Source: a virus. Taken from it: a stretch of DNA of 33,641 nucleotides. The notes under the pieces are model-generated. The model was not told the origin of the DNA and ran no database searches. It saw only the letters and a list, made by a program, of their open reading frames with translations. Made by a program: the position numbers and the translations under genes. Positions 352 to 33,641 of this stretch are shown piece by piece. Location: positions 1-33,641 of IMG/VR virus record IMGVR_UViG_3300046373_000239, one strand, 5' to 3'. Every line of letters starts with the position of its first letter. Position 1 is the stretch's first letter.

Positions 352-370
352 AACACTTGTCGCACTATTT

Positions 371-443
371 GACCTGATAGCTCAGCTGGGAGAGCGCTAT
401 CTTGACAGGGTAGAGGTCGCAGGTTCGATCCCTGTTCAGGTCA
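371..443 (+). tRNA. tRNA-Val (anticodon GAC)
   Basis: The cloverleaf can be folded by eye. The acceptor arms GACCTGA (371-377) and TCAGGTC (436-442) pair over 7 bp with discriminator A443. The D arm contains AGCTCAGCTGGGAGAGC. The anticodon arm is CTATC-TTGACAG-GGTAG, with GAC in the standard position of the 7-base loop. The T arm contains GGTTCGATCC. CCA is not encoded. The gene has its own promoter and a strong terminator just downstream, so it should be functional. Its 3' half is the likely phage integration target and is kept intact at this end. Confidence 0.95.
421..443 (+). other. Probable attL core (tRNA 3' end)
   Basis: Tyrosine integrases commonly use the 3' end of a tRNA gene as attachment core. 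Here the tRNA is followed at once by phage-like intergenic DNA, and the integrase lies at the far right edge of the element. No second copy of the tRNA tail occurs inside the window, as expected if attR is just beyond 33641. The exact core limits are inferred. Confidence 0.5.
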
Positions 444-461
444 TTCATACAGAAAGCTACG

Positions 462-486
462 AACCCTTACATAGTAAGGGTTTTTC
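462..486 (+). terminator. Intrinsic terminator of the tRNA-Val unit
   Basis: AACCCTTAC (462-470) and GTAAGGGTT (474-482) form a perfect 9-bp stem with a 3-base loop, and further T's follow. It lies about 20 bp beyond the tRNA 3' end. If integration is at the tRNA end, this terminator is brought in by the phage. Confidence 0.8.
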
Positions 487-536
487 TTATGTAACAGAGC
501 AAAATGCATGAGTAATACAGCAGGCTAAATATTCAC

Positions 537-556
537 TTGTTGACGGATTGTTGACG
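537..556 (+). repeat. Direct repeat TTGTTGACG x2, candidate integrase arm sites
   Basis: TTGTTGACG occurs at 537-545 and again at 548-556, an 11-bp period (one helical turn). The pair lies about 100 bp inside the prophage end, in non-coding DNA. Short direct repeats one turn apart beside an attachment site are typical arm-type binding sites of tyrosine integrases. The role is inferred from position. Confidence 0.5.
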
Positions 557-646
557 AAAAATAAAAGACTTCAATCAAATGAAGCATCATACTAGGAAGT
601 TTAACTCAATATCCTACAAATAGCTGATTATCTATTCTCTGTGTTC

Positions 647-4437: not shown

Positions 4438-4659
4438 ATGGGCGGTTTACATTGCAATCTTGAAAAGATACTTGGAGAACGCGGGATGAAACAAAAGTTC
4501 TTTGCCGATAAATTGAACATGAGGCGAAATACGATAAGCGCTATTATCCATGGGACTAAAACTGATATCGAAACAGCCCTGCGGATTGCTAACGTTTTGG
4601 GGTTGAAAGTGGAAGATATTTGGAATCTGGAAGAAGAAGGAAAAATATTAGACACATAA
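4438..4659 (+). CDS. Xre-family HTH transcriptional regulator (Cro-like)
   Basis: The 73-aa protein is a single HTH domain: LEKILGERGMKQKFFADKLNMRRNTISAIIHGTK gives helices 1-4, with the recognition helix around NMRRNTISAIIHG, followed by TALRIANVLGLKVEDIWNLEEE, the usual end of this family. The start ATG has AGAGGTGAATTT in front. It diverges from the FtsK/relaxation operon and precedes the Ltp-like gene on the same strand. It is therefore a local regulator of the left arm, separate from the CI-like repressor at the right end. The family is sure; the targets are inferred. Confidence 0.85.
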   Translation: MGGLHCNLEKILGERGMKQKFFADKLNMRRNTISAIIHGTKTDIETALRIANVLGLKVEDIWNLEEEGKILDT

Positions 4660-4743: not shown

Positions 4744-5367
4744 ATGGGATTTTTAAGAGTGCTTGGATGGGTATTTTTTCCGTATGTGATGATATTCATC
4801 AGATGGAAAACAGTAGGAATGCCAGTAAAGATTATTGGAGGTATTTGGGCGGGGTTAATACTCATTATGACTATCACCATAGCTACTAGTGACGACACTA
4901 AAAAAGGTTATGAAGCTGGCACGGTTGACGCTCTCAATGATACAACAAAAGCTACGAGTGAAGTTAGTGATGCTGTCAAAACACCTGAACCTACTAAAAA
5001 TCCAAAGCCAACAGTTGCACCTACTAAATCTCCAGAACCAACAGCTACACCGGTTGTGGTACAAGAAAGTGTGTCAGAAACCTCCGGCCAACGTAATGCT
5101 GTTCGTGCCGCGAAAAATTATCTAGACTATACGGCATTCTCGAGGCAGGGCTTAATAAAGCAGCTAATATTTGAAAAATACAATGAAGCTGATGCAGAAT
5201 ATGCTGTAGACCAAATTAGCGCAGATTGGAATGAGCAAGCCGTAAAAACTGCTATAAATTATCTTGATTATACAGCATTCTCTAAACAGGAACTTATAAA
5301 ACAGCTAGAGTTTGATGGATATACAAGTGAACAGGCTATATATGGTGTCGATAAGTCATACAAGTAA
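4744..5367 (+). CDS. Ltp-like membrane protein, possible superinfection exclusion
   Basis: The product is 207 aa. Two hydrophobic segments (about residues 3-20 and 28-48) are followed by a Thr/Pro/Lys-rich linker (about 78-105). Two copies of a helical repeat come next, each containing NYLDYTAFS(R/K)Q-LIKQL-F---Y--A-YAV/GVD. This repeat is the Ltp domain (host cell surface-exposed lipoprotein), known from Streptococcus phage TP-J34, where Ltp blocks DNA injection by other phages. No lipobox cysteine is seen, so membrane segments appear to replace the lipid anchor. It lies downstream of the Xre gene and ends on a terminator. The domain call is firm; superinfection exclusion is by analogy. Confidence 0.75.
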   Translation: MGFLRVLGWVFFPYVMIFIRWKTVGMPVKIIGGIWAGLILIMTITIATSDDTKKGYEAGTVDALNDTTKATSEVSDAVKTPEPTKNPKPTVAPTKSPEPTATPVVVQESVSETSGQRNAVRAAKNYLDYTAFSRQGLIKQLIFEKYNEADAEYAVDQISADWNEQAVKTAINYLDYTAFSKQELIKQLEFDGYTSEQAIYGVDKSYK

Positions 5368-5968: not shown

Positions 5969-6850
5969 GTGGAATCAGGGCAACAAATTGTCATGCATCC
6001 GAAGATGCGTCGACTAAGGCTACTTCGCCGAATCGCCTTTTTAGTTATCGGATCAGCACTCTTCTCTGTAGGACTGGAAACGTTTTTGGTCCCTAATAAC
6101 ATCATTGATGGTGGTATCACAGGTATTTCCATCATTTTAGCCCATGAAACTCACTTACCATTAGGAATATTCCTAACACTTCTTAACTTTCCATTTCTTA
6201 TTTTAGGTTATAAGCAAATAGGAAAAACGTTTGCTTTATCTACCTTGTTCGCTGTTCTGCTTATGTCCATCGGTACAAGTCTCCTCATACCTGTGCAACC
6301 ACTAACCATTGATCCTCTTTTGGCTGCAGTATTCGGTGGTATTATTTTAGGTATTGGTGTGGGGATAGTAATCAGATCAGGTGGGTCTCTGGATGGAACC
6401 GAAATAGTGGCTATCCTGATAGACAAGAAAACTTCGTTCTCTGTTGGTCAAGTCGTCATGTTCTTTAATTTTTTTATTTTGGGTAGCGCTGGTTTTATAT
6501 TTGGTTGGGACCATGCTATGTATTCTTTAATTGCCTTTTACATTGCCTTTAAGATGATCGATATTGTCATTCTAGGGCTAGACCAATCTAAGTCTATATG
6601 GATTATCAGTGATAGTGCCAAAGAAGTTGGAGAGGCGATAGTCAGTCAGCTGGGACGCGGGGTGACATACCTGAACGGAGAAGGTGCATTTTCGGGAAGC
6701 GATAAACAGGTCATTTTCTGTGTAATTACCAGGCTTGAAGAAACCCAGTTGAAATCTATTGTTGATGAAATCGATCCCATCGCCTTCCTGGCCGTTGGCA
6801 ATATTCATGACGTAAAAGGTGGACAATTCAAAAAGAAAAATATTCATTAA
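5969..6850 (+). CDS. YitT-family membrane protein (DUF161 + DUF2179)
   Basis: The 293-aa protein has a hydrophobic first two-thirds with about five to six membrane segments. It contains the family signature NNIIDGGITGISIIL near residue 50 and GGSLDGTEI near 140. A soluble C-terminal domain follows (from about 205: SIWIISDSAKEVGEAIVSQLGRGVTYL, ending DPIAFLAVGNIHDVKGGQFK), the DUF2179 domain typical of YitT proteins. GTG 5969 is the start, with TAGGAGGG 6 bases before it. The length is normal and the gene looks intact. The family is common in Bacillales chromosomes, and its biochemical role is unsettled. It is unusual cargo in a prophage and is oriented against the phage late genes. Confidence 0.9.
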   Translation: MESGQQIVMHPKMRRLRLLRRIAFLVIGSALFSVGLETFLVPNNIIDGGITGISIILAHETHLPLGIFLTLLNFPFLILGYKQIGKTFALSTLFAVLLMSIGTSLLIPVQPLTIDPLLAAVFGGIILGIGVGIVIRSGGSLDGTEIVAILIDKKTSFSVGQVVMFFNFFILGSAGFIFGWDHAMYSLIAFYIAFKMIDIVILGLDQSKSIWIISDSAKEVGEAIVSQLGRGVTYLNGEGAFSGSDKQVIFCVITRLEETQLKSIVDEIDPIAFLAVGNIHDVKGGQFKKKNIH

Positions 6851-6918: not shown

Positions 6919-7077
6919 GAAAAACTCGTTCAGGACTTGAAGAAGATGCTGCAGCCATTTCCCGTGGAACATATGAGAGCTTATCCGGTGAGTAAGGATG
7001 TGGGGAATGTGAGGAATCAAGGGACAGAGTTAGTTGCTGAAGTGAATAAAAAAGCACAAACTAGGGTGCCTTTTTAA
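6919..7077 (+). pseudogene. 3' relic of an SRAP (YedK/YoqW-like) gene
   Basis: In one plus-strand frame, about 6919-7077 encodes a stretch reading LQPFPVEHMRAYPVSKDVGN followed by VRNQGTELVAEVN and a TAA at 7075-7077. This closely resembles the C-terminus of SOS-response-associated peptidases, which process abasic sites in DNA (YedK, HMCES; YoqW in SPbeta). The catalytic N-terminal cysteine and most of the domain are absent: a TGA lies upstream in the same frame near 6876, with no start or ribosome site. It follows the YitT gene on the same strand. It is a leftover of a deletion, not a functional gene. Confidence 0.7.
7048..7075. terminator. Terminator downstream of the 7078-8196 gene
   Basis: On the minus strand AAAGGCAC pairs with GTGCTTTT (8 bp with one G-U) around an 8-base loop, followed by T's. 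It also has T's on the plus strand (7071-7075), so it may work in both directions. Confidence 0.65.
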
Positions 7078-8196
7078 TCACCTATCATAAGTAAAATGTT
7101 TGTCGATAAATACCTTTGGGTTCCAGCCATTTATTAATTTATCTACCCAAAAAGCATCTATGGTTGAAATTGCTGTACCAAATGCCGCAGAACCAAATGA
7201 ACCATCAAATGCCAGACCAAATAAAGTAGATGCTCCAATCCTTAACAATTTTGTTGGGATATTTGTAGACGTTGGATTTCTAAATGTTTCAGTATATAGC
7301 TTCAATATGCTTTTATCATCATTTGTCCTCATGCTATATAACCATTCTCTAAATTCAAACAAACGCGGGTCTTTTTTCATACTCATGACTTCATCAGGTG
7401 ACCATCCAAGAGTAACTAATTTTGGTATGTCAGGAATATCTTCAAATTCTAAAATTTTATTTATTCTATTCTGAGCTTCTTGAAAAGTTGTATTCTTAAG
7501 GGGATATCCTCCAATAATTGACCAAGTTAATTCATTTCCATAGATATTACTACAAGCTGACTGTGAGGAACATTCCAAGTCTAGATTAACTTTAGCGATA
7601 TTGAGTAACGAATTGATTATCTCATTGTCCTTTTCATTATCGTAAGCTAGTAATGCCTCCTTGCTATCAACATTAAATATGTCCTTATTCTGAATAGCTA
7701 TGTTATATGTATGTTCAACAATTTTACCAGGATACTGGCTTTTAAGAATTTCTCTTGAATATTTAGAAACTCTATTTGCTAATCTACTAGCCTTTCCGTG
7801 TGATAAATTTAATTCTTCAATAAGCGGTACTTTTATTGCATCAATGATATTATTCCATTCCTTATCTGTGCCGATAAGCCATTTAATTCCGCTTTCGGTG
7901 AAGTTAGATAATGCGATTCTGTTTCTATCAGAAACATATGTAAATGTCCCGGGTATATAACAAAGATTTATTGTTCCTTCCTCCACTAACTTTTCGAAGT
8001 TTTTCAACCCGAACCATCTTATTAATATAACCAATTCTCGAGCGGGACCGTAAATAGGGATAGTAATTGTTTCGTTTAATAACAAACTCTCTGCAAATCT
8101 ACCAATGATACTTAAAGAATTCTGGGATTCTAAGTCCGAAATCTCTTTATACCTTTGGCCAATTATTGTACTTATTTCGCTAAAATATTGATTCAT
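7078..8196 (-). CDS. Unknown 372-aa protein, candidate defence or moron gene
   Basis: ATG 8196 (MNQYFSEISTIIGQRYKEIS) is preferred because GAGGTGAGAG stands about 10 bases upstream; the frame also opens at ATG 8226. The N-terminal 100 residues contain AESLLLNETITIPIYGPARE and LVILIRWFGLKNFEKLVEEG, a pattern seen in uncharacterised bacterial proteins. The C-terminus has a small-residue, glycine-rich helix (LFGLAFDGSFGSAAFGTAIS) before WVDKLINGWNPKVF, which could insert in a membrane. No catalytic motif is recognised. It is AT-rich, alone between terminators, and sits among other unknown genes in the accessory block. Function unknown. Confidence 0.7.
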   Translation of the reverse strand: MNQYFSEISTIIGQRYKEISDLESQNSLSIIGRFAESLLLNETITIPIYGPARELVILIRWFGLKNFEKLVEEGTINLCYIPGTFTYVSDRNRIALSNFTESGIKWLIGTDKEWNNIIDAIKVPLIEELNLSHGKASRLANRVSKYSREILKSQYPGKIVEHTYNIAIQNKDIFNVDSKEALLAYDNEKDNEIINSLLNIAKVNLDLECSSQSACSNIYGNELTWSIIGGYPLKNTTFQEAQNRINKILEFEDIPDIPKLVTLGWSPDEVMSMKKDPRLFEFREWLYSMRTNDDKSILKLYTETFRNPTSTNIPTKLLRIGASTLFGLAFDGSFGSAAFGTAISTIDAFWVDKLINGWNPKVFIDKHFTYDR

Positions 8197-8296
8197 GCGA
8201 CTACTCTCACCTCTCACCGTAAACATTCGCCACTGACCAATATTTCCCTCCTACAAGAAACAAAAGAGCCCTCCTCCTGTGGAAGTAGCATGAAAT

Positions 8297-8809
8297 TTAG
8301 TACGTTTGTGAATTTTTCTCTAAATCCCTATATTCTTGCACATCATCCCACATGTACTTTATTAAATATTTTTTGCATTTGTTATATAATGTTTCATTAA
8401 ATTTATTTTTAATCACTCTTACTTCATATGTATTTCCAATTTCATTTGTAATTTCTACTAGATTATGTTCTTTTAATATTTTATCAGATCCGTACGCTGA
8501 GGAACCAACCACAGTGTTAAATAACCTTTGATACAATTCTGATCTGTTAACTTTTATGGGTTTGTTGGATGCCACACACCATAAATAAAGAAATCTATCT
8601 GCATAAGGTTCTATATGTCCACCACCAGTTCTTAATCTAGGGCGGTTATTTTTCATTAAAATATTAAATAATTTCTTCCTTTTAATAAAAGACCTAATTA
8701 ATTGATTCGGCTTTTTGTACATAACGAATAATACGATAGCGACTACAAACGTACTGAAAAACCAATCGAATGAATTGTTAATAATATAATTCCATAACTT
8801 TTCAAGCAT
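8297..8809 (-). CDS. Single-pass membrane protein with cytosolic domain
   Basis: The 170-aa product starts at ATG 8809 with GAGGTG 6 bases upstream and an extended -10 promoter (8840-8848). It has one membrane segment near the N-terminus (about residues 13-33, FDWFFSTFVVAIVLFVMYKK), then a basic juxtamembrane region and a soluble domain of alternating helices and strands (SELYQRLFNTVVGSSAYGSD, KILKEHNLVEITNEIGNTYE), which could be a winged-helix-like fold. No family is recognised. The gene is AT-rich compared with the structural genes, a sign of separate origin. It may be co-transcribed with the 7078-8196 gene. Confidence 0.7.
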   Translation of the reverse strand: MLEKLWNYIINNSFDWFFSTFVVAIVLFVMYKKPNQLIRSFIKRKKLFNILMKNNRPRLRTGGGHIEPYADRFLYLWCVASNKPIKVNRSELYQRLFNTVVGSSAYGSDKILKEHNLVEITNEIGNTYEVRVIKNKFNETLYNKCKKYLIKYMWDDVQEYRDLEKNSQTY

Positions 8810-8839
8810 ATATACACCTCGATTTCGTTGTTGATCATA

Positions 8840-8848
8840 ATTATAGCA
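8840..8848 (-). promoter_or_regulatory. Extended -10 promoter for the 8297-8809 gene
   Basis: On the minus strand TGCTATAAT occurs, a perfect TGnTATAAT extended -10, about 25 bp before the ribosome site of the 8809 gene. The -35 region lies in the preceding terminator and is poor, which the extended -10 can offset. Confidence 0.6.
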
Positions 8849-8854
8849 TGAAAA

Positions 8855-8893
8855 ACAAATAAGCCCCCACGGTTAAGTGAGGGGCTTATTTGT
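8855..8893. terminator. Strong bidirectional terminator
   Basis: ACAAATAAGCCCC (8855-8867) and GGGGCTTATTTGT (8881-8893) form a perfect 13-bp stem with a 13-base loop. T's follow on the minus strand. It separates the 8922-9167 gene from the 8809 gene. Confidence 0.85.
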
Positions 8894-8921
8894 ATAAAAA
8901 ATATGTGGAAGGTTTTTGTTT

Positions 8922-9167
8922 CTAGTTCTCTAGTCTGAATTCATTTGACCTCAACCCGACGGAATTTTGATGCATGATATTATTTCGTCTCATTAACATT
9001 TGCGCTGAAATTTTTTTCGTTTGTATATCTACAACCTGACTTTTTCGTTTTTCTACAAGACTTATTGTAGTAAGGACCTCATTAAACTCCTGCAATGATA
9101 TGCGTTTTTCTTCATAGGCTTTTTGGGCTGCTCCGCGCATTAGAGGAATTTGTTTATAATTAGCCAT
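8922..9167 (-). CDS. Small hypothetical basic protein (81 aa)
   Basis: ATG 9167 is preceded by GGGAG about 11 bases away. The product is soluble, helical and basic: MANYKQIPLMRGAAQKAYEE, then KRISLQEFNEVLTTISLVEK, then RKSQVVDIQTKKISAQMLMR. It resembles no family I can name. It lies between the GAF-like membrane protein gene (38 bp upstream) and a 13-bp terminator, so the two may form a short operon. Confidence 0.6.
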   Translation of the reverse strand: MANYKQIPLMRGAAQKAYEEKRISLQEFNEVLTTISLVEKRKSQVVDIQTKKISAQMLMRRNNIMHQNSVGLRSNEFRLEN

Positions 9168-9204
9168 TATAGAACACGCTCCCTTCTTCCCATATTATAC
9201 CACA

Positions 9205-10017
9205 TCATGTTTCATCTTCGCTACTAGCTCCAACTTCCTGTACGGTGTTTATTTCAGTTAATGCGCTGATTGCCATAATATGTTCACGTATTATACCTTC
9301 TAATGCAGTTGCATATAGCTCACTTAACAGTTGTATATGCTCTCCCATTGGTTGGCTACCATCAACACTTAATACAATCCAGTCGCTAATTGGAACACAA
9401 ATTAATGAAGTATACTGGCTTTTAGATTCGGGATTAGTTTCCCAGTCACTATCCGAGCGTACATCATCGGAATTGACAACTTGCATCCGTCTTATACATC
9501 TTCCAGCAACGGAACGATTAATATTTAAAATTCGACTATTTGCATAATTTTTTGGAAATCCCGAGCTCGTAAAAGCAAGTCTCAGATTATCTTGTTCTTG
9601 TATCCAAAGACCACATCTATGGGAACCACCGGCTTTAGTTTTGATATCAGAGGCAAGTGTATCGAGCCATTTTTGAATAAGTTGAACAATTTCCTGGACT
9701 CTAATACTGACATCTTCTTCGGCCCTTATATTATTTAGAGCCTCGATTATTGTACGAATATTGTGACAAGCAGTAGTAAGTTGTAACGAAATTCCTTCGA
9801 ATTTACTTGATCGTTCTTTTTCCTGGGCAAGCTTATTATGTAGATCCTCAATCCTATCGTCTCTCTTTAAAATGCTTTGAAATATTTTTGAAAGTTTAGA
9901 AGTACCAAATAACACTAACCATAGAAAAATACATATAGCAATAAGTAGGACTACGCCTGTCAATTGAAAAAACCAACTAGGTAGATTGTCCAAAGTAGCC
10001 TTAATAATCTTGTCCAA
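9205..10017 (-). CDS. Membrane-anchored coiled-coil protein with GAF-like domain
   Basis: TTG 10017 is chosen because AGGGGGG stands 6 bases before it; the open frame runs to 10041. The 270-aa product has one membrane segment (about residues 17-39), a coiled coil (about 45-75, RIEDLHNKLAQEKERSSKFE) and a C-terminal domain with GAF features. Those features include SRILNINRSVAGRCIRRMQV, then VNSDDVRSDSDW, then SQYTSLICVPISDWIVLSVD. GAF domains bind small ligands or act as oligomerising sensors. No output enzyme is attached, so signalling would need a partner. It is the first gene past the truncated late operon, with its own ribosome site. Domain call moderate; role unknown. Confidence 0.65.
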   Translation of the reverse strand: MDKIIKATLDNLPSWFFQLTGVVLLIAICIFLWLVLFGTSKLSKIFQSILKRDDRIEDLHNKLAQEKERSSKFEGISLQLTTACHNIRTIIEALNNIRAEEDVSIRVQEIVQLIQKWLDTLASDIKTKAGGSHRCGLWIQEQDNLRLAFTSSGFPKNYANSRILNINRSVAGRCIRRMQVVNSDDVRSDSDWETNPESKSQYTSLICVPISDWIVLSVDGSQPMGEHIQLLSELYATALEGIIREHIMAISALTEINTVQEVGASSEDET

Positions 10018-10088
10018 AATAATCCCCCCTAACCATGTCAATCATATTCTATATGATAAATATTGGAAATACAATAATTTCCTTAAAT

Positions 10089-10122
10089 AAAAAGAGCCCC
10101 TCACCTGAGTTAGCGTGAGGGC
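10089..10122. terminator. Terminator closing the late structural operon
   Basis: On the minus strand AGCCCTCAC and GTGAGGGGCT pair (9 bp, one bulged G) around a 10-base loop and are followed by TTTTTATTT. It lies about 65 bp after the tape-measure stop, so late transcription ends there instead of running into tail-tip and lysis genes. Confidence 0.75.
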
Positions 10123-10186
10123 TTCATTTTATAAATTAGCGAAATTCTTATTATCATTCCATATTGATTCAAACACCTGATCCCAT

Positions 10187-11968
10187 TTAATAACCAAATT
10201 GTCTAGCTAATTGCGGAAACCTTTTAAAGAAATCTATAATATCCTGAATATCTTTCAAGCTACTTGCATCGATCCGGAAAGCTCCATCGTGAAAATTGTT
10301 GGTTATTTCCGTCTTTGTTCGTCTCTCATCATTTACTTCCTTATCCAGTGGTGTTACTCTCGCGCCTGTGGGAAGGTCAAGAAACTCGGGTCCGCGTTCA
10401 CCTACCAAAACTCTACCGGCTTCGGTAATATCGCCACCTTCTGCAAGCATGGGGATGTTCGGAATATTGGGAAAGCTAATTTCTCCACCGCCAATAGTCT
10501 TATCGGTAAATGGAATTTTAACAGATGGAATAGTGATATGAATAGCGTTTATACCGTTGATGAAGGAGTTTATAGCTCCGATGATGAAATTAATCGATCC
10601 CTTAATTCCGCTTACAATTCCATCCCAAATGCCAGATATAAAGCTAGCAATTCCATTCCAAACATCTTTAAAAACTGTTGTTACACCATCCCATATTGTA
10701 ACTAAAAATTTCACAATTCCCTGAAATACGTTTGTCGCCTTCGTGGATATTCCATCCCACAATTCAGTAAAAAATTTGGCGATCCCATTCCAAACAGATA
10801 TAGCCACGTCTCGAATAGCCTTCCATACTTTATCTAGAAAAGCACTTACCGTATCCCAGTTTTTATAAAGCAGCACGCCAACCGCGACTAAAGCAGTAAT
10901 GGCTAGTATTACAATTCCAATAGGTGATGTTATAAACGCAATCACTACTGCAAAGGCTCCGCCCACCGTGGTTGCTATTCCCGTCACCGTTGACCATATG
11001 CCGGTAGCAATTGCTGCAGCGTTAATTGCCAAAGTGTATATCCCAAAAACCAAAGCCCCCGCACCTATGCCAATTAATATTGGTTGTAATATTGCCCAGT
11101 GATTAACGAAAAAGGATGTTAGTGATTTAATTACATCGATCACTGTTCCAATCACTATGCCAGCTGTACTAAAGGTTGTATGGATTACATTCTGAATCTC
11201 TGGCATGTGTGCTATGACCCAATCCATCATAGTTTGGAACATCGGCATTAATTCAACGCCAACCTTAGCAGCCACGCCCCCTAGAGCCCCTTTGATTTGA
11301 TCCAGTGTATCACCAAAGGTATCTGCTGAATTAACGGCATCCTTGCTTAACACAAGCCCTAACTCATGGGCCTGCTTCGACATAGCGTCTATCCCTGCGC
11401 CGCCTGCGTCAAGTAAAGGAACAAGCTCCATGGCACCCTTACCAAAGAAGCTCATGGCTAGAGCATTTCGATCCGATGCATTCGTCATCCCTGCGAGTTT
11501 CTTTATAACTTCTGGGAAAACATCATCCATCTTTCGTAGATGCCCACTGCCGTCATTTGTTTCAATACCAAGCTTTTTAAATGCTGCTGCCGCTGCCTTG
11601 CTTCCTTCGTCCGCACCCGACATCGTTTTGGTAAGTTTGCCGACCGCTCCTGTAATAGAGTCAAATTCAACTCCAACCTGTCCGGTAGCAAACTTCAATT
11701 CTTGTAATCTATCCGTAGACAACCCTGTTCTAACACTCATATCGTTTATTTCAGATGCACTATCACTTACGTTAGCGGCTAAAGCAAAAAGACCGGCACC
11801 AGCTGCCACAGCCCCAGCCGCAAGTCCGGCAACCCATTTAGCTGCCGTTCCTATCATTGAGCCGAGTGTAGTACCCGTTTTGTCTGCTTTTCCGTCTATA
11901 TCATTCAAACTTTTGATTGCGTCCTTATCATCAATAAACACACTGCCGAATAGTTTAAATATTTCCAT
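10187..11968 (-). CDS. Phage tail tape measure protein
   Basis: The 593-aa protein starts at ATG 11968 (GAGGGTGA before it; an earlier GTG at 11977 is less likely). It shows the tape-measure layout: an N-terminal helical region (MEIFKLFGSVFIDDKDAIKS), Ala/Gly-rich hydrophobic stretches (around residues 45-65 and 280-370), and tryptophan-spaced amphipathic repeats (VWNGIAKFFTELWDGI, IWDGVTTVFKDVWNGI). The typical C-terminal segment LAEGGDITEAGRVLVGERGP is followed by EFLDLPTGARVTPL. It is short for a siphovirus tape measure, implying a short tail. It would scaffold the tail tube and set its length. It is the last phage structural gene before the accessory block. Confidence 0.92.
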   Translation of the reverse strand: MEIFKLFGSVFIDDKDAIKSLNDIDGKADKTGTTLGSMIGTAAKWVAGLAAGAVAAGAGLFALAANVSDSASEINDMSVRTGLSTDRLQELKFATGQVGVEFDSITGAVGKLTKTMSGADEGSKAAAAAFKKLGIETNDGSGHLRKMDDVFPEVIKKLAGMTNASDRNALAMSFFGKGAMELVPLLDAGGAGIDAMSKQAHELGLVLSKDAVNSADTFGDTLDQIKGALGGVAAKVGVELMPMFQTMMDWVIAHMPEIQNVIHTTFSTAGIVIGTVIDVIKSLTSFFVNHWAILQPILIGIGAGALVFGIYTLAINAAAIATGIWSTVTGIATTVGGAFAVVIAFITSPIGIVILAITALVAVGVLLYKNWDTVSAFLDKVWKAIRDVAISVWNGIAKFFTELWDGISTKATNVFQGIVKFLVTIWDGVTTVFKDVWNGIASFISGIWDGIVSGIKGSINFIIGAINSFINGINAIHITIPSVKIPFTDKTIGGGEISFPNIPNIPMLAEGGDITEAGRVLVGERGPEFLDLPTGARVTPLDKEVNDERRTKTEITNNFHDGAFRIDASSLKDIQDIIDFFKRFPQLARQFGY

Positions 11969-12026
11969 ATGGTTCACCCTCTATCTATTGAATGATGTAT
12001 AATTAAGCCAAAAGGAGCGTGATCCC

Positions 12027-32345: not shown

Positions 32346-32465
32346 ATCACAACGAGAATGAACGTTCCCAAGTACAAATGTTCCCGCAATGCTATAAAGT
32401 GTCTGATAACGGCTCACAGGCGGTCACAGCTATATCTACACAATAAACTAAAGGAGGGTTTTATC

Positions 32466-33641
32466 GTGGCAAGTGTTCAGAAGCGTGGTGAAGGATCTTA
32501 TTTGCTCGTTGTCGAAGCCGGATACAAATCCGATGGATCCAGAGCCAAGAGAACTAAAACCGTTAAAGCAGATGGCATCCGTGAAGCTCGGAAGCTGCTA
32601 GCTGAATTTCAGACTGAGGTTGAAGCTGGAGAATATATTTCACCGGAGAAAATGAAGGTTGCGGATTTTATAGAGGATTGGCGTACCAAGTATGCTCAAA
32701 AAGAACTGGAATCTGCCACACTTGCCACATATAACGTGCATATTAAAAATCGGATTATCCCCTATTTCGGACATATGCGCTTAGACCAGGTTAAGGCGAT
32801 CCACGTTGTAAACTTCCTGAGTTCACTTGACAGCAATATCCGAATGGACGGAAAAGAAGGCGGCCTCTCTTCTGGAACGATACAATTCGTTCACCGAGTC
32901 CTTAAAAACATATTTAGTCGTGCCTGTGATTGGAAGCTTATAAAAGTTAACCCGCTTGCAGATATCAAGAAACCTAAAGTCACTCAGAAGGAAATGCAGG
33001 TGTACGACGAGCAGGAAACAGCCCTTCTTTTCCAAACTCTTGAAGATGAGCCAATAGAATGGCGTATGATGGTTATACTCGCTCTCACTACCGGCCTACG
33101 CAGAGCCGAGTTGCTTGGGCTAGAATTTGAACATATTGATATGGTAAACGGGACAGTACTTGTTAAACAATCGATCACTATGAGTGAAAATGGTGAACGG
33201 CGAATTAAGGCCCCAAAAACGAAAAGCAGCGTTCGAAAAGTATCGCTAACCCCCTCTGTGTTGGATGATTTGAAGGAATATTATTTGCATGAAAGAAAAA
33301 AGAAGCTTCGAGTCGGAGACAAATGGAAAGGCGGGGAGCATTTCTTTGTCTTCAGTTCGTGGGATGGACAAGCCCTCTACCCAACCTCTCCTACTATGTG
33401 GTGGAGACGGTTTATTATCAAGTCAGGACTAAAGCATATTCGGTTCCATGACCTTCGCCACACGGCTGCTACGTTGTTAATAAATCAAGGTGTTCATGCA
33501 AAGACGATATCGGATAGATTAGGTCATGCATCGATTTCAACTACTATGAACGTGTATGGTCATCACCTGCAGGTAGCAGATCAAGAAGCAGCGAATAAGC
33601 TTGAAGGGTTGTTTTCCAACCGCAAGAAAAAGAGCTTATAG
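32466..33641 (+). CDS. int: Tyrosine integrase
   Basis: GTG 32466 follows AAAGGAGGG by 7 bases; the frame opens earlier, at 32358, without a ribosome site. The 391-aa product has an arm-binding N-terminal region (MASVQKRGEGSYLLVVEAGY), a SAM-like core-binding domain (about 65-165, MKVADFIEDWRTKYAQKELE), and a catalytic domain with R212 (TTGLRR), K253 (KTKSS), H328 and R331 (HDLRH), H354 (LGHAS) and Y364 (MNVYGH). All six key residues are present, so it should be active. It ends at the last base of the window, and attR is expected immediately after. Confidence 0.93.
   Translation: MASVQKRGEGSYLLVVEAGYKSDGSRAKRTKTVKADGIREARKLLAEFQTEVEAGEYISPEKMKVADFIEDWRTKYAQKELESATLATYNVHIKNRIIPYFGHMRLDQVKAIHVVNFLSSLDSNIRMDGKEGGLSSGTIQFVHRVLKNIFSRACDWKLIKVNPLADIKKPKVTQKEMQVYDEQETALLFQTLEDEPIEWRMMVILALTTGLRRAELLGLEFEHIDMVNGTVLVKQSITMSENGERRIKAPKTKSSVRKVSLTPSVLDDLKEYYLHERKKKLRVGDKWKGGEHFFVFSSWDGQALYPTSPTMWWRRFIIKSGLKHIRFHDLRHTAATLLINQGVHAKTISDRLGHASISTTMNVYGHHLQVADQEAANKLEGLFSNRKKKSL

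Follow-up and report, generated by a model that had tools for sequence, protein, structure and literature searches.

Passages of Rousset et al. 2022 (PMC9122126) and Vassallo et al. 2022 (PMC9519451) place a defence hot spot of P2-like phages beside the portal gene, and a passage of PMC3952083 describes Ltp as the superinfection-exclusion lipoprotein family of phage TP-J34. In Geobacillus phage GBSV1 and phage SpaA1, holin and endolysin genes are followed by variable genes, a helix-turn-helix (HTH) gene, FtsK, a replication initiation protein and an integrase. Here we analyse a virus record of IMG/VR (IMGVR_UViG_3300046373_000239; the whole stretch of 33,641 bases is called the window) that resembles GBSV1 and SpaA1 in this order and carries a block of four minus-strand genes, A, B, C and D, at positions 7,078 to 10,017. 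A sequence-only reading had seen in them a membrane sensor with effector-like genes, fitting the pattern of phage-defence systems. On balance, we favour the reading that the block is cargo of an accessory (lysogenic-conversion) slot in a prophage without tail-tip and lysis genes, and not one four-gene machine. Gene A, judged by its relatives, appears to be a mobile solo gene that recurs at accessory sites of phages. Anti-phage genes show this pattern, but it does not prove such a role.

From right to left, the window holds an integrase, a repressor, replication genes, a sigma-like gene, and genes for terminase, portal, protease, capsid, connector, major tail protein and tape-measure protein (TMP). 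To the left of the block stand a possible SRAP remnant, YitT, an Ltp-type lipoprotein, a small HTH gene (by eye), FtsK, Replic_Relax and tRNA-Val (Table 1). Four annotated phages found through FtsK (GBSV1, SpaA1, 268TH007 and TS-12) share the order lysis genes, zero to three genes, HTH or repressor gene, one or more small genes, FtsK. The gene past FtsK is annotated as replication-relaxation in 268TH007, replication initiation in SpaA1 and GBSV1, and hypothetical in TS-12, and an integrase lies a little beyond it in SpaA1, GBSV1 and 268TH007. The order in the window is that of these four phages minus the stretch from Dit to endolysin, and its succession of HTH gene (by eye), FtsK and Replic_Relax (both by Pfam) is that of the Bacillales FtsK/Replic_Relax prophage type, the attachment (att) end being the part that we infer. 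Compared with GBSV1 and SpaA1, the window has more cargo, and Dit, tail-tip, holin and endolysin genes were not found in it. The shared order, together with the Ltp-type lipoprotein inside the slot, bears out the earlier placement of the block in a prophage accessory slot.

Table 1. Positions of the features discussed, with related loci in the last two lines
Feature	Position	Strand	Basis
Probable left end of the prophage: tRNA-Val, terminator resembling an att core, TTGTTGACG direct repeats	370..561	+	tRNA gene, repeat comparison
Replic_Relax and FtsK/SpoIIIE pair, att-proximal phage module	1319..3126	-	Pfam
Small HTH gene (Xre-like, by eye), inner border of the slot	4438..4659	+	position and sequence; HTH/repressor here in four annotated phages
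Ltp-type lipoprotein of the same slot, candidate for superinfection exclusion	4744..5367	+	PF07553 3e-29, two stretches
YitT/DUF2179 membrane protein gene, full-length, probably captured host gene	5969..6850	+	PF02588 9e-69
Possible remnant, last 28 positions of an SRAP gene	6928..7011	+	PF02586 at 16.2 bits, under its cut-off (27.1)
Predicted hairpin terminator after gene A	7048..7076	-	z -4.1; missed by consensus terminator scan
Gene A, 372 aa (382 aa from upstream ATG at 8226)	7078..8196	-	ORF; phage-borne family, C-terminal signature G..S..D.F..DKL..GW.P..FI conserved
Gene B, 170 aa, one N-terminal transmembrane segment, net charge +12	8297..8809	-	ORF
Strong predicted bidirectional hairpin between C and B	8850..8895	.	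z -7.0 (-), -6.4 (+); also in consensus scan
Gene C, 81 aa, basic, net charge +6	8922..9167	-	ORF
Gene D, 270 aa from TTG	9205..10017	-	N-terminal transmembrane segment and GAF domain, invariant H133-R134-C135
Predicted bidirectional hairpin between TMP and D	10086..10130	.	z -3.3 (-), -4.6 (+); missed by consensus scan
Tape-measure protein (TMP), apparently intact to the C-terminus	10187..11977	-	PHROG tape-measure 3e-51
Tyrosine integrase, right end of the record	32358..33641	+	PHROG integrase 1.3e-78
Relatives of A: L201, L203, L204, L205, L236-L244, L275			sequence and profile searches
Relatives of D: L162-L179 (genomes), L245-L246 (IMG/VR)

Within the slot, the candidates for defence are A and the Ltp-type lipoprotein. 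The latter resembles TP-J34 Ltp by its two PF07553 stretches; it lies outside the block and is unrelated to A-D by the scans made. FtsK was used to choose 16 Paenibacillales regions; in the 10 that had an endolysin match, this preceded FtsK by 1.9-8.4 kb, the cargo varied, and none of the window's A, B, C, D, YitT and Ltp genes recurred at E 1e-3. By eye, and with no defence library run on it, this mixed cargo shows no obvious enrichment for defence, so that lysogenic conversion is the best name for the slot. The YitT gene is 82% identical to a copy in Paenibacillus cremeus, which stands first among 80 matches listed, mostly from Paenibacillus; on these matches we call the host Paenibacillus-like. 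No genome close to the host was found, and we take P. cremeus to belong to the order Paenibacillales and the class Bacilli. The YitT/DUF2179 gene, which is full-length, apparently lies inside the prophage with the possible SRAP C-terminal remnant after it.

Downstream of a tape-measure gene, Dit, tail lysin, fibre, holin and endolysin genes are expected. The TMP of the window aligns over residues 2-595 of 596 to its counterpart in L082, where tail-like genes (by eye) come directly after the tape measure. None of the expected genes was found among 35 window proteins scanned against PHROGs; these include all minus-strand open reading frames (ORFs) of at least 125 aa right of 10,187, and several small holin-sized ORFs were unscanned. 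Judged as a complete prophage, with head, tail-tip and lysis genes, the window has head, packaging and TMP genes, the others not being among the 35 proteins. Because no Dit, tail-tip or lysis gene was found, the slot abuts the TMP gene and the prophage is probably defective. The earlier description of the block as standing in place of the lysis region was therefore right in its outcome. At 10,041-10,187, between the apparently intact TMP stop and the predicted bidirectional hairpin, the Dit-to-endolysin module is missing.

The four ORFs were confirmed where the sequence-only reading had put them, each with a purine-rich stretch before its start. They are AT-rich, as it had said, with GC contents of 0.332 (A), 0.282 (B), 0.358 (C) and 0.364 (D), hence 0.28-0.36, versus 0.41-0.44 in four phage genes (TMP, 0.432; major tail protein, 0.414; TerL, 0.426; integrase, 0.438). 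Its further statement that each gene is set off by terminators or its own promoter held in part. When stretches chosen by eye were folded against shuffles (z), the hairpins in the TMP/D and C/B gaps and the one behind A did better than shuffles, whereas the A/B hairpin did not (z -0.3), though the consensus terminator scan had listed it. That scan found 4 terminators versus 2.0 expected (sd 1.6), none of them between D and C. Promoter-like sites were rarer than in shuffles (11 versus 17.3, sd 4.1), so that promoters of individual genes are unsupported and were set aside.

In none of 392 Paenibacillales genomes did two or more of the four proteins have relatives, in a search that scored at most two candidates a genome and may have missed weak relatives; the 21 genomes with any match comprised 18 with D, two with an A-like protein and one with a chance match to B. 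A search of 104 genomes at family level scored all candidates of the displayed rows. PADLOC-DB 2.0.0 matched none of the four proteins at E up to 1. The A and D families have separate histories, their relatives occurring apart; on this ground and for lack of co-occurrence within the limits of the 392-genome search, the proposal that a membrane sensor and its effectors form one system was rejected. What is left of the proposed phage-defence role is indirect support for gene A only, whose relatives lie at P2-like cargo sites and on a contig with Gabija.

The A family was found in one of 5,426 E. coli genomes (UTAK-6), in one of 72,556 plasmid records (Buttiauxella), in nine IMG/VR contigs reached by profiles and, with the full-family profile, in three of 363 genomes of the order (G179; G284, a broken copy; G099, the source of L275). 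The independent cases are fewer than nine, since L236 is identical to UTAK-6 at 100%, probably being the same prophage, and L237 and L238 are alike. Single-sequence searches gave no relative of window A in IMG/VR or genome contigs, and none of the L201 protein in IMG/VR. No relative of A turned up in the 50,697 phage records searched, nor did window A in the 72,556 plasmid records. A two-row C-terminal profile gave nothing in 398 genomes of the host's class, among which no positive is known, so that this shows little.

The A gene lies between P2 genes V and S in six contigs (L236, L237, L238, L239, L242 and L241, the same contig as L204) and in UTAK-6. In L240 it follows portal gene Q, in L243 it adjoins a terminase-like gene and in L244 it precedes a lysozyme-like gene (the last two by eye). 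The family, though not the window itself, is thus placed as hot-spot cargo is placed, as a small insert between conserved phage genes. In L240 the gene stands between the portal gene and that of a 753-aa protein (a replication endonuclease by eye), which is the place named in a passage of PMC9519451; the V/S site is not named in the passages of PMC9122126 and PMC9519451. The window differs from these hot spots in being a Bacillales-type prophage with another slot. The GC content of A-family genes is 0.06-0.19 below that of their own loci in 12 of 12 measured, a set with two probably non-independent pairs. The relative in L201 shares an 11.7-kb contig with strong matches to GajA and GajB of Gabija some 5 kb away, the interval containing polymerase-like and transposase-like ORFs (by eye); GajA and GajB were not found among the window proteins scanned. 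The neighbours of L275 include SIR2-like, Mrr-like and HNH proteins (by eye), and because PDB searches of the SIR2-like and Mrr-like ones were null, they were not counted as defence genes. From these placements, A is a credible single-gene anti-phage candidate.

We opened the V/S sites of UTAK-6 and of nine of the other 50 E. coli matches (51 in total), picked across identity groups. All ten held cargo, of six types by size or accession, one of which, in another E. coli prophage, is an NsnA-like DUF262 protein (6.6e-80) with a HEPN gene. Further candidates among this cargo, all without a PADLOC match, are the proteins at L206:2736-3665, L207:1945-3576, L211:1978-3771 and L213:2583-3569. At the portal-side site of the UTAK-6 prophage (L205:25068-27736) an NsnB/AriA-like ATPase gene neighbours a hypothetical gene, and beside the tail-fibre end of a P2-like prophage (L204:543-2597) stands a 684-aa protein with only a weak CARF-PDDEXK-type match.

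The A protein has the glycine-rich C-terminus seen earlier. Nothing in Pfam or NCBIfam matched it above cut-off, PADLOC gave no match and PHROGs only one of E 0.2; sub-cut-off Pfam and NCBIfam rows for Eno-Rase_NADH_b and FabV, which fall on the glycine-rich part, were set aside. Window A and nine viral relatives form a full-length, colinear alignment with 23 invariant columns, and BLAST aligned about 200 residues at 28% identity with the proteins of three P2-like contigs (L204/L241, L239 and L242). The structure model of the L236 protein has a pLDDT (predicted local distance difference test) score of 69.7, mostly above 70 up to about residue 260 (the alpha/beta part), and a helical C-terminus of low confidence. 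A fold search with it gave no match at E 0.001 in PDB or BFVD, and fold comparison gave Rossmann-like rows, the best at Z 5.2 (cyclodipeptide synthase), with TIR at 4.0; as these rows are weak and tied, we claim no enzyme class for A. About 50 residues of the family (L236, approximately 232-280) resemble the phycobilisome linker ApcE (PDB profile E values of 1.5e-4, 0.002 and 0.02), and the UTAK-6 relative matches Pfam PBS_linker_poly below cut-off (0.0046); nothing was built on this likeness.

Gene D fits its earlier description as a GAF-like membrane protein. A single strong transmembrane segment spans its residues 19-37 (Kyte-Doolittle mean 2.99), and in Pfam it falls just below the cut-offs of GAF_2 (3.9e-6; 27.6 bits versus 28.6) and GAF (20.9 versus 22.4). 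A profile of 19 sequences, that of the window included, matched the GAF structures 3ci6 (PtsP; 2.6e-5) and 3e0y (1.3e-4). What sets D apart from these proteins is its N-terminal membrane anchor; a catalytic or output domain was not recognised. The invariant triad is part of 22 positions unchanged in all 19 sequences. Relatives of D, 24-46% identical, occur in 18 of the 392 genomes, as a single gene in the 18 regions fetched. A YitT-like cluster gene is nearby in 10 displayed neighbourhoods (Pfam-confirmed in L187), and three of the four closest relatives adjoin YchF-like and DUF6612 genes (both Pfam-confirmed in L183). None of nine neighbouring proteins belonged to a phage family by Pfam (L183, L184 and L187), the other neighbourhoods being compared by clustering only. 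Independent occurrence in ordinary chromosomal settings, which had been named as the finding that would count against a defence role, is thus what D mostly exhibits, standing single where phage genes were not recognised nearby.

No relative of D was found in the 50,697 phage or 72,556 plasmid records. A single-sequence search of IMG/VR was likewise null, and a profile reached two loci there, L245 and L246. In L246 the D relative is 37% and FtsK 47% identical to that of the window; on one side of D stand a lipoprotein-like gene, FtsK and a Replic_Relax-like gene, and on the other an amidase-like gene, past which come holin-like, fibre-like and tail genes (all but FtsK by eye). With this presence in the same slot of another phage, D is a bacterial family acquired by phages at least once more.

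Of the two remaining proteins, C is the small basic one described before. B, described as a membrane protein with a possible winged helix, has the transmembrane segment; the winged helix found no support, since at E up to 1 Pfam, PHROGs and NCBIfam gave no match to a winged-helix-turn-helix family. Relatives of B and C were found in neither the 104 family-level nor the 392 order-level genomes, and a single-sequence search found none of B in IMG/VR. The weak match of B to L202, which looks like an ECF sigma factor by eye, was taken as chance.

The prophage probably spans from tRNA-Val (370-444) to beyond the integrase (33,641), its left end lying probably, not certainly, at the tRNA gene. The direct repeats TTGTTGACG at 537 and 548 lie beside tRNA-Val, and their region matches, over 25 bases at 96%, repeats some 30 bases past the integrase of L218, which is 61% identical to that of the window. 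Several other integrase loci have different paired repeats, then a AAAACCCTT-like core near a host gene (by eye). Beside the TTGTTGACG repeats, at 647-677, are three GTGGGCA repeats with 12-base spacing, possibly arm sites of a second integrase. The SRAP gene was considered as the attachment site and dismissed, since even the best match of the fragment in 20 related integrase loci (E 0.91) is unconvincing.

Several results weigh against our reading or narrow it. The TTGTTGACG repeat is present in one of the 20 related integrase loci, that of L218, and is missing from L216 and L217, whose integrases are nearest to that of the window; with the right att site outside the record, the limits of the prophage are only those that we infer. 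The cargo of the 16 FtsK regions includes, by eye, Ku-like, ligase-like, DinB-like and ParM-like proteins and lipoproteins; as the Paenibacillales slot also holds such ordinary genes, position alone is not proof of defence. At the V/S site, five of the six cargo types, the A family included, had no PADLOC hit at E 0.01. By BLAST, the match of window A to L201, L203 and L205 is limited to the C-terminal 50-90 residues, and nothing was found at E 1e-4 against L236, L237, L238, L240 and L244; homology over the full length of A rests on the alignments. The structure model of window A is too poor for a fold search (pLDDT 43). The usual hydropathy threshold for a transmembrane segment is 1.6, and the hydrophobic C-terminus of A peaks at 1.2-1.5 (Kyte-Doolittle). 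A word search of the literature met no paper on the A family, a sequence-based search not having been made.

The block might instead serve ordinary lysogenic conversion, with A, D and YitT altering the fitness or surface of the host and no link to phage defence. We consider this rather unlikely, though neighbouring slots with mixed, repair-like and segregation-like cargo (by eye) agree with it, as do the D relatives, single and near YitT-like, flavohaemoglobin-like, transporter or YchF genes; against it stand the recurrence of the A family at V/S and portal sites, the latter a published hot spot, the A relative that shares its contig with Gabija, and the Ltp-type lipoprotein in the same slot. 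It is very improbable that A-D form one multi-gene defence system with D as membrane sensor and A and B as effectors. Their common strand, adjacency, low GC and the membrane segments of D and B would fit such a system, which is contradicted by the lack of co-occurrence within the limits of the 392-genome search, by A relatives standing alone between conserved phage genes and D relatives standing single, by the predicted hairpins that split C from B and end A, and by the absence of a PADLOC match.

Two further explanations concern the DNA rather than the proteins. It appears quite improbable that the block is host chromosome beside a truncated prophage: the likeness of YitT to a chromosomal gene, the possible SRAP remnant next to it and the occurrence of D relatives mostly outside recognised phages speak for a host flank, whereas FtsK/Replic_Relax, the HTH gene and the integrase arm-type repeats lie on its far side, next to tRNA-Val, and D is found in the same slot of L246. 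Gene order and arm repeats thus weaken this possibility. Improbable too, if slightly less so, is that the record was misassembled or joins two elements, an integrative one at tRNA-Val and a truncated prophage. Two integrases could account for the two sets of repeats beside the tRNA gene, the TTGTTGACG set is missing from the two integrase loci most like that of the window, and tail-tip and lysis genes were not found, but the gene order fits single phages on both sides of the gap.

Returning to the accessory-slot reading, a deletion would have brought the slot against the TMP gene. D would be a membrane-anchored GAF sensor of a ligand or of redox state, drawn from the host lineage, that changes the physiology or gene regulation of the lysogen. 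A would act alone against incoming phages; from the placements of its relatives, we regard an anti-phage role as evenly balanced. Its alpha/beta N-terminal part may recognise or bind a product of the infection, while the C-terminus, glycine-rich and hydrophobic with DKL..GW.P..FI at its end, may contact the membrane or a partner and stop the infected cell, a mechanism that we consider unlikely to hold as a whole. Tentatively, and with less than even confidence, A could represent an undescribed single-gene anti-phage family common to phages of Gram-positive and Gram-negative bacteria, with an alpha/beta N-terminal sensor, a glycine-rich, membrane-seeking C-terminal effector (G..S..D.F..DKL..GW.P..FI) and the P2 V/S gap as a further defence site. 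The A-family members scanned had no match in PADLOC-DB 2.0.0 and none above cut-off in Pfam; PHROGs and NCBIfam were searched with the window protein only. As a caution, the block illustrates that neighbours in a prophage slot need not form a system. If A protects, it would be a new solo gene family that extends from Paenibacillus to enterobacterial P2-like phages, and the V/S gap of P2 would be a place to seek more defence genes.

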